A DNA stretch of 37,467 nt. Source: Deltaproteobacteria bacterium (GTDB taxonomy: Bacteria; UBA10199; JACPAL01; JAHFST01). The notes under the pieces were generated by a model that was not told the DNA's origin, searched no databases, and worked only from the letters and a program-made list of their open reading frames with translations. The stretch is taken from assembly GCA_023265625.1 (NCBI GenBank), contig JAHFST010000003.1, forward strand, positions 1 to 37,467. The letters run 5' to 3'. How positions within the stretch are numbered: position 1 is the first letter of the stretch; the number at the start of each line of letters is the position of its first letter. Made by a program: the position numbers and the translations under genes. Shown here in pieces: positions 32,317 through 33,729 of the stretch.

Positions 32317-33671
32317 CCTTGGAAGATTTAGACAAGCGCTACGTCTGGCATCCCTTCACCCAAATGAAGGAATATGCCTCCGAATCAAACCTAGTGATTG
32401 TGCGTGGCGAGGGAAATTATTTGATCGATGAGGAGGGGCGACGCTACTTGGATGGTGTGTCCTCCCTGTGGGTCAACCTGCATGGACACAGGCATCCTCA
32501 CATCGATGCGGCCCTCAAGGATCAGATAGACAAGATTGCGCACTCTACGTTGTTGGGGATTGCCAATGAGCCATCGATTCGTTTGGCGGAAAAATTGGTG
32601 TCAGTGGCCCCTGTAGGGGCGTATTGCAATACGCCCCTACAACATGTTTTTTATTCCGATAATGGATCGACCGCGGTTGAGGTGGCCCTCAAGATCGCCT
32701 TCGAATATTGGCAACTTCGTGCCAGGCACGCGCCGAACCTATTGAAAAAGAAGAAGTTTGTTTCTTTTTGCGAGGCCTATCATGGGGATACCTTGGGGGC
32801 GGTGAGTGTGGGGCATATCGAGCTGTTTCATGAAGTGTATCGCCCTTTGCTCTTTGCCACGCACCAGGCTCCGATCCCCACAGATCCCGGTTGTCTCGAT
32901 TGGGTCGAACAACTTTTTCAAAAACAGGCGGGGGAGATTGCGGCTTGCATTATTGAACCGCTCGTTCAGGCGGCCGGCGGGATGATTGTCCAACCCAAGG
33001 GTTTTCTCAAGCGGTTGCGCGAGCTGTGCACGCGTTATCAAGTGCTGCTGATTGCGGACGAGGTGGCGACGGGTTTTGGCCGCACCGGCACTTTGTTTGC
33101 GTGTGAACAGGAAGAGGTTGTGCCCGATTTTCTCTGTCTTGCCAAGGGGCTTACGGCCGGTTATCTCCCGCTGGCGGCCACTTTGACGACCGCAGAAATT
33201 TATCAGGCCTTTTTGGGGGATTATGGCGAATTCCGCCACTTCTTTCATGGGCATTCCTACACCGGAAATCAATTGGGCTGTGCGGTGGCACTCGCGAATT
33301 TGGAGGTCTTTAATCGGGAACATGTTTTGGAAAAACTGCCGCCAAAAATTGCGCGGTTTCAGGAATTATTGGCAGGATTGGCGCAATTGCCGCAGGTGAA
33401 AGAGGTGCGGCAGCAAGGGTTGATGATTGGGATCGAATTAAATGTAGGGGCGGCCCTATGTGGCCGCCCGGCGGGTGAGGGCAACCACATAGGGTTGCCC
33501 CTACAGGAACAACGGTTGGGACACCAGGTCTGCCTGGCCGCCCGCGCGCAAGGTGTGTTTATTCGGCCGTTGGGGAACGTCATTGTGCTGATGCCGCCGT
33601 TGTCGATTACGTTGGATGAGATTGCTTGGTTGTGTCGGGTGACACATGAGGCCATTGTAGGGATTTTGTAG
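32313..33671 (+). CDS. bioA: DAPA aminotransferase with two in-frame palindromes
   Basis: Transfers an amino group to 8-amino-7-oxononanoate. [10 protein letters not shown] starts it (ATG 32313, overlapping the bioF stop), [58 protein letters not shown] and [13 protein letters not shown] (PLP Lys278) follow. Two family-typical loops are replaced by repeat-encoded peptides: [11 protein letters not shown] before HVFYSDNGS (32612-32641) and about [20 protein letters not shown] after GIELN (33443-33505). Both insert sizes are multiples of three. The TAG stop is the first TAG of a third element. The core looks intact, so the enzyme is probably active. Confidence 0.95.
32612..32641. repeat. Perfect 30-base palindrome inside bioA
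   Basis: TGTAGGGGCGTATTG and CAATACGCCCCTACA, a perfect palindrome read in frame as ten codons. It is the single-hairpin form of the family and is placed in a surface loop before HVFYSDNGS. Confidence 0.93.
33443..33505. repeat. Paired-hairpin TGTAGGGGC element inside bioA, copy I
   Basis: A 63-base copy (21 codons) in frame. Left hairpin GGGCGGCC/GGCCGCCC, loop CTATGT; right hairpin GGGCAACC/GGTTGCCC, loop ACATAG. The frame reads GTA-GGG so the TAG is not a stop. Its twin is at 33667. Confidence 0.95.
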
Positions 33672-33729
33672 GGGCGGCCCTCCGTGGCCGCCCGGCGGGT
33701 GAGGGCAACCACGGAGGGTTGCCCCTACA
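33667..33729. repeat. Paired-hairpin TGTAGGGGC element, copy J
   Basis: A 63-base copy that differs from copy I only in the loops (CTCCGT and ACGGAG), where both sides changed together. Its left TAG is the bioA stop, and its right end is ten bases before the bioD ATG. Confidence 0.95.

Follow-up and report, generated by a model that had tools for sequence, protein, structure and literature searches.

Repetitive extragenic palindromic (REP) sequences that carry a GTAG tag are known to donate TAG stop codons and to sit in frame within genes, and families consisting only of heterodimers have been published (Di Nocera et al. 2013, PMC3733652). In REP doublets forming hairpins (REPINs), compensatory changes within the hairpin have already been noted (Bertels and Rainey 2011, PMC3116915). 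REPs internal to tnpA-REP genes have been reported for subclass 2.4 of these transposase genes (Quentin et al. 2018, PMC6006769), and systematic evolution of ligands by exponential enrichment has indicated that the loop sequence is not selected by the E. coli TnpA-REP and that group-3 enzymes select it at some positions (PMC8266576). Here we analyze two near-identical elements in a stretch of 37,467 nucleotides from a Deltaproteobacteria bacterium (GenBank assembly GCA_023265625.1, contig JAHFST010000003.1, positions 1 to 37,467; the window). Both elements are REPINs: head-to-head (HH) doublets of GTAG-tagged REP hairpins, also called bacterial interspersed mosaic elements (BIMEs) or HH dimers, of the GTAG-REP heterodimer kind. 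The loops of the two copies differ by a matched change, which the original prediction took as a sign that loop-loop pairing is maintained or that one arm is corrected from the other. We find that the two loops vary independently across the family and that the matching change in the twins is a local accident and not evidence of maintained pairing.

The twins are 65-nt direct repeats at 33443-33507 and 33667-33731, with 94% identity and a separation of 224 bp. The doublets proper run from 33443 to 33505 (copy 1, loops CTATGT / ACATAG) and from 33667 to 33729 (copy 2, loops CTCCGT / ACGGAG), both on the forward strand, and each is built as GTAG plus hairpin, spacer, and hairpin plus CTAC, with arms of 27 nt and a center of 9 nt. 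In copy 1, the left REP unit (33444-33469, forward strand) consists of GTAG and the hairpin GGGCGGCC-CTATGT-GGCCGCCC; it is followed by the 9-nt spacer GGCGGGTGA (33470-33478, forward strand), which is the same in both copies, and by the right unit (33479-33504), which on the minus strand reads GTAG and GGGCAACC-CTATGT-GGTTGCCC. The left unit of copy 2 (33668-33693, forward strand) has a GGCC stem and its right unit (33703-33728, minus strand) an AACC stem, both with the loop CTCCGT. As the original prediction stated, the copies are identical save for both loops, and two positions have changed together with both of their partners: the only differences are AT at 33458-33459 versus CC at 33682-33683, and AT at 33489-33490 versus GG at 33713-33714. 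Read from its own GTAG end, each unit therefore differs in the same way, with CTATGT in copy 1 and CTCCGT in copy 2.

Two drawings of each copy are possible: a pair of hairpins, GGGCGGCC-CTNNGT-GGCCGCCC and GGGCAACC-ACNNAG-GGTTGCCC, or a single hairpin with 27-bp arms. For both twins, whether as DNA or as RNA, the fold predicted to have the minimum free energy is the one long hairpin (DNA -26.3 / -28.6 kcal/mol; z ~ -5.5), in which the 'loops' are paired stem bases. The two-hairpin drawing in the original prediction is likewise legitimate, because each unit has a perfect stem of its own.

The identity of the elements follows from their anatomy and their spread. An unpaired GTAG foot stands beside a palindromic stem, as in GTAG REPs and HH dimers, and two inverted REPs with a spacer and a predicted hairpin make up a REPIN. 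Searching with the pattern GTAGGGGC-N(20-50)-GCCCCTAC, we found at least 37 doublets in the 2.93-Mb genome and none with the reversed control pattern; in the window there are 3 doublets, compared to none in 100 shuffles. The doublets are thus far beyond chance. Thirty-six doublets in the genome have a 14-nt unit interior. Like GTAG REPs, which lie mostly near gene ends, they are numerous and dispersed, and several doublets in the window abut gene 3' ends or donate TAG stops. Units in the genome fall into many stem types, including GGCC, AACC, AGCC, AGAC, GCAC, and GAAC, and not one of 60 doublets (38 from this genome and 22 from relatives) has equal stems on its two arms. No Rfam family scores above its gathering threshold anywhere in the window.

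Real covariation in this family occurs within each hairpin, between the halves of its stem: these are complementary in 75 of 76 units in this genome and in 42 of 44 in relatives. Loops behave differently. The number of doublets with equal loops in this genome (22 of 38) matches the 21.2 expected from shuffling partners inside each stem class (P=0.38), and permutation likewise gave 2.3 expected in relatives, where we observed 1 of 22. A sample of 121 GGCC/AACC doublets from other phyla (Geobacteraceae, Nitrospirota, Phycisphaerae, Armatimonadetes, and others) contained 16 with equal loops versus 12.8 expected (P=0.20); permuting within genomes, we observed 6 versus 7.9 expected. At loop position 2, pooling gave a signal (reached in 0 of 5000 permutations) that was rejected, as it was lost under within-genome permutation (P=0.12), so that differences between genomes lie behind it.

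Particular copies tell the same story. The mismatched loop pair CCCTGT/CCCCGT has been propagated in all seven doublets of one relative (G012), and CTATGT/CTGCGT in all three AGCC/GGCC doublets of this genome. A second set of near-identical twins, at C26:132948 and C26:133745, shares a 21-nt spacer, and a single base in one of the loops is all that distinguishes its members. Among 18 same-spacer pairs with loop differences, several of which have spacers of 6-7 nt and come from different genomes and are thus not all recent copies, fully matching changes occur only in the pair reported here. This is the outcome that the original prediction had named as grounds for giving up a maintained loop-loop pairing. 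Neither in the 38, 22, and 121 doublets nor in the same-spacer pairs do loops covary across copies beyond permutation.

A candidate source of mobility lies in the same genome. Ten Pfam Y1_Tnp matches are present, and one REP-associated tyrosine transposase (RAYT) gene, at C26:80958-81563 on the minus strand, is associated with the same REP type, as expected of REPINs: a GGCC-CTATGT / ACCC-CTGTGT doublet lies in frame after its HUH motif, an AACC-CTATGT unit lies at its 3' end, and the REP-encoded peptide VGAALCGRP is common to this RAYT and to the insertion in bioA described below. Our initial candidate arrangement, REPs flanking RAYT genes, failed for most of the Y1_Tnp matches; searching for homologues of the interrupted RAYT placed the REPs inside the gene instead. 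Using an N-terminal query ending at the HUH motif, we collected 31 RAYT loci in a search of 146 genomes, of which 30 lie in other genomes or contigs; a REP unit stands just after the HUH motif in 23 of the 31, in 18 cases as a doublet, compared to 2 of 31 for an upstream control window of similar length. Internal REPs cannot be claimed as new, having been reported earlier for subclass 2.4 (PMC6006769); they support the assignment. We also observed that RAYT-like genes at C36:13792-14403, at C32 ~4751-4310 (minus strand), and at C26:80958-81563 carry a complete in-frame REP doublet just after the HUH motif, of three different REP types.

Taken together, these data are best explained if the REPINs are non-autonomous mobile repeats of the type moved by RAYT / TnpA-REP single-strand transposases, presumably mobilized here by the RAYT on C26, and if the AT/AT and CC/CC loops of the twins arose through one local exchange event and not through selection for loop-loop pairing. 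The exchange would be either a template switch from one arm of the quasipalindrome to the other or gene conversion over a short tract, with another unit as donor; an AACC-CTCCGT unit is available elsewhere. We assign a probability of roughly 0.82 to this explanation as a whole, with RAYT-type REPINs, independent loops, and coordination through one local exchange. Three points weigh against it. All four differences between the twins are matched and none falls in the spacer, an improbable outcome of independent point mutation; the minimum-energy fold predicted for both twins is the long hairpin, which leaves room for inter-arm pairing in single-stranded DNA; and the mobilization by the C26 RAYT is suggested by association. 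The first point also bears on mechanism: independent mutations would hardly produce four matched changes and spare the spacer, which makes one exchange event likely. The common 9-nt spacer indicates that the twins probably have a recent joint history, and their difference most likely reflects one local exchange or an arm-to-arm template switch.

How might such an exchange have come about? The leading candidate, a serious one that nevertheless falls short of even odds, is that one loop became CC, for instance via an AACC-CTCCGT unit, and that fold-back of the nascent strand copied CC to the other loop in one quasipalindrome template switch. The distribution of the loops fits this sequence of events, as it does the gene conversion considered below. 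Within the whole genome, CTCCGT occurs in a GGCC arm only in copy 2, while AACC-CTCCGT has one other intact site (C37:367264-367279), where it forms a doublet with a CTATGT left unit; this doublet, GGCC-CTATGT / AACC-CTCCGT at C37:367212, resembles an intermediate. Template switching between hairpin arms is established (PMC8794818, PMC7202029), and the long hairpin is the predicted fold of the single strand. However, the copied tract would have to stop within 4 bp on either side, since the flanking GG/AA stem mismatches are uncorrected, and the family has no significant excess of equal loops. The suggestion that one arm is corrected from the other is possible as a one-off event in this pair but fails as a general rule of copying: in these same palindromes, the GG/AA mismatches of the stems always persist. 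A broader and more tentative proposal is that arm-to-arm template switching on REPINs now and then copies one loop over the other, with a tract of ~10 bp or less and with mismatched stems untouched. If this is true, such switching leaves false 'compensatory' signatures between recent copies.

Somewhat less favored, and in our judgment unlikely, is a meeting of two REPIN lineages at this locus, one AT/AT and one CC/CC, in which ectopic gene conversion homogenized only the middle (stem-spacer-stem) and left the loops different. Next to the spacer, GTGGCCGCCC and GGGCAACCAC are identical stretches that could form the borders of a single tract, and the CTCCGT loop does exist elsewhere as a separate AACC unit. 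Chimeric units exist as well: a double-foot unit at C37:118862, GTAGGGGCGGCCCTGTGTGGTTGCCCCTAC, resembles a central deletion that joins a GGCC half to an AACC half, which indicates that the arms of such doublets recombine. Against this history, neither the genome nor the relatives searched contain an intact CC/CC doublet besides copy 2.

Selection to keep the loop-loop pairing of the long hairpin, with a change in one loop compensated in the other, is highly improbable and, at the level of the family, refuted. The twin pair itself, the long-hairpin fold of both copies, and five AT/AT doublets of the twins' class in the genome would fit it, but the resemblance between loops does not exceed that of shuffled ones, mismatched loop pairs have multiplied stably (in G012 and among AGCC/GGCC doublets), the second twins on C26 are one-sided, and the arm stems always differ, already weakening the long hairpin. 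The remotest explanation is an assembly or consensus artifact, to which near-identical 65-mers 224 bp apart could be prone in a draft genome of 37 contigs (95.6% complete), where short near-identical repeats can be mis-resolved; yet the copies lie in intact and distinct gene contexts, with bioA reading through copy 1 in frame and copy 2 preceding bioD, and complementary consensus errors are not expected.

Other doublets and fragments show further rearrangements. Two short double-foot palindromes, GTAGGGGTTCAAAATTTTGAACCCCTAC and GTAGGGGCGTATTGCAATACGCCCCTAC (window positions 30036-30063 and 32613-32640), have the form that a doublet would take after a central deletion, and the composite doublets at C16:67834-67898 and C37:367208-367283 have a truncated third unit fused between their arms, which suggests recombination between units. 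The window holds five more GTAGGGGC doublets, most with other stem types (3642-3712, 20236-20286, 21140-21222, 27190-27262, and 36079-36155), some of which adjoin gene ends. Among the 38 doublets of this genome and the 22 in relatives, stem pairings appear to be obligatory, as for GGCC with AACC or AGCC, and for AGAC with GCAC or GAAC.

The twins lie in and beside biotin genes. The gene bioA, encoding a class-III aminotransferase of the adenosylmethionine-8-amino-7-oxononanoate aminotransferase type, occupies 32313-33671 on the forward strand, its start being placed by homology and by an ATGA overlap with the upstream gene. Copy 1 (33444-33506) adds 21 in-frame codons to it, between GIELN and EQRLGH, at a site where the length varies among BioA homologues. 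The end of bioA falls within copy 2: the 5' TGTAG of this element supplies the TAG stop at 33669-33671, and the element ends 10 nt before the start codon of a bioD-like gene (PF13500 AAA_26, dethiobiotin synthase type; 33740-34411, forward strand). A metabolic enzyme that carries a REPIN in frame is thereby documented for a little-studied bacterial lineage. The TACAGG that ends three REPINs, copy 2 among them, is followed within a few bases by an ATG (window 33729-33740, and the areas of C16:67899-67915 and C16:118610-118630), and all three elements directly abut what looks like the ribosome-binding site of the following gene.

The structure of these elements is ordinary: intragenic REPs, stop-donating REPs, heterodimers, and REPs within RAYT genes have all been published. 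What the twins add is a caution: when two copies of a quasipalindromic mobile repeat differ at a base and also at its partner, this can mimic a base-pair covariation that is absent from the family. In its palindromic, in-frame insertion into a coding gene, copy 1 in bioA recalls the Rickettsia palindromic elements (RPE), a likeness of insertion mode; the element here is a GTAG-tagged 63-nt doublet. Quasipalindrome template switching (PMC8794818, PMC7202029) similarly changes a base and its partner in one event and so produces an apparent compensatory change; here, in contrast, a single pair is affected and neighboring arm mismatches stay uncorrected. The three traits quoted for REPtron subclass 2.4 (PMC6006769) are all present here, an assignment by features. 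Like the REPINs of Bertels and Rainey, our elements are dispersed, inverted REP doublets with a spacer, a predicted hairpin, and conserved ends; they differ in their short spacer (mostly 0-30 nt), in halves that always differ in the stem, and in loops that are independent. The GTAG REP head-head heterodimers of Di Nocera et al. are alike in several respects: the GTAG foot is immediately followed by a stem of 5-13 bp, dimers are HH, heterodimers have different stems or loops, TAG stops are donated to flanking open reading frames, in-frame intragenic copies of 20-30 codons occur, and long or split folding is possible. The searched text of that paper does not print the GTAGGGGC consensus, and the likeness is drawn without a family number. 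The difference is that here we find only heterodimers, with equal stems in 0 of 60 doublets, so that in this little-studied bacterial lineage heterodimers are apparently obligate.
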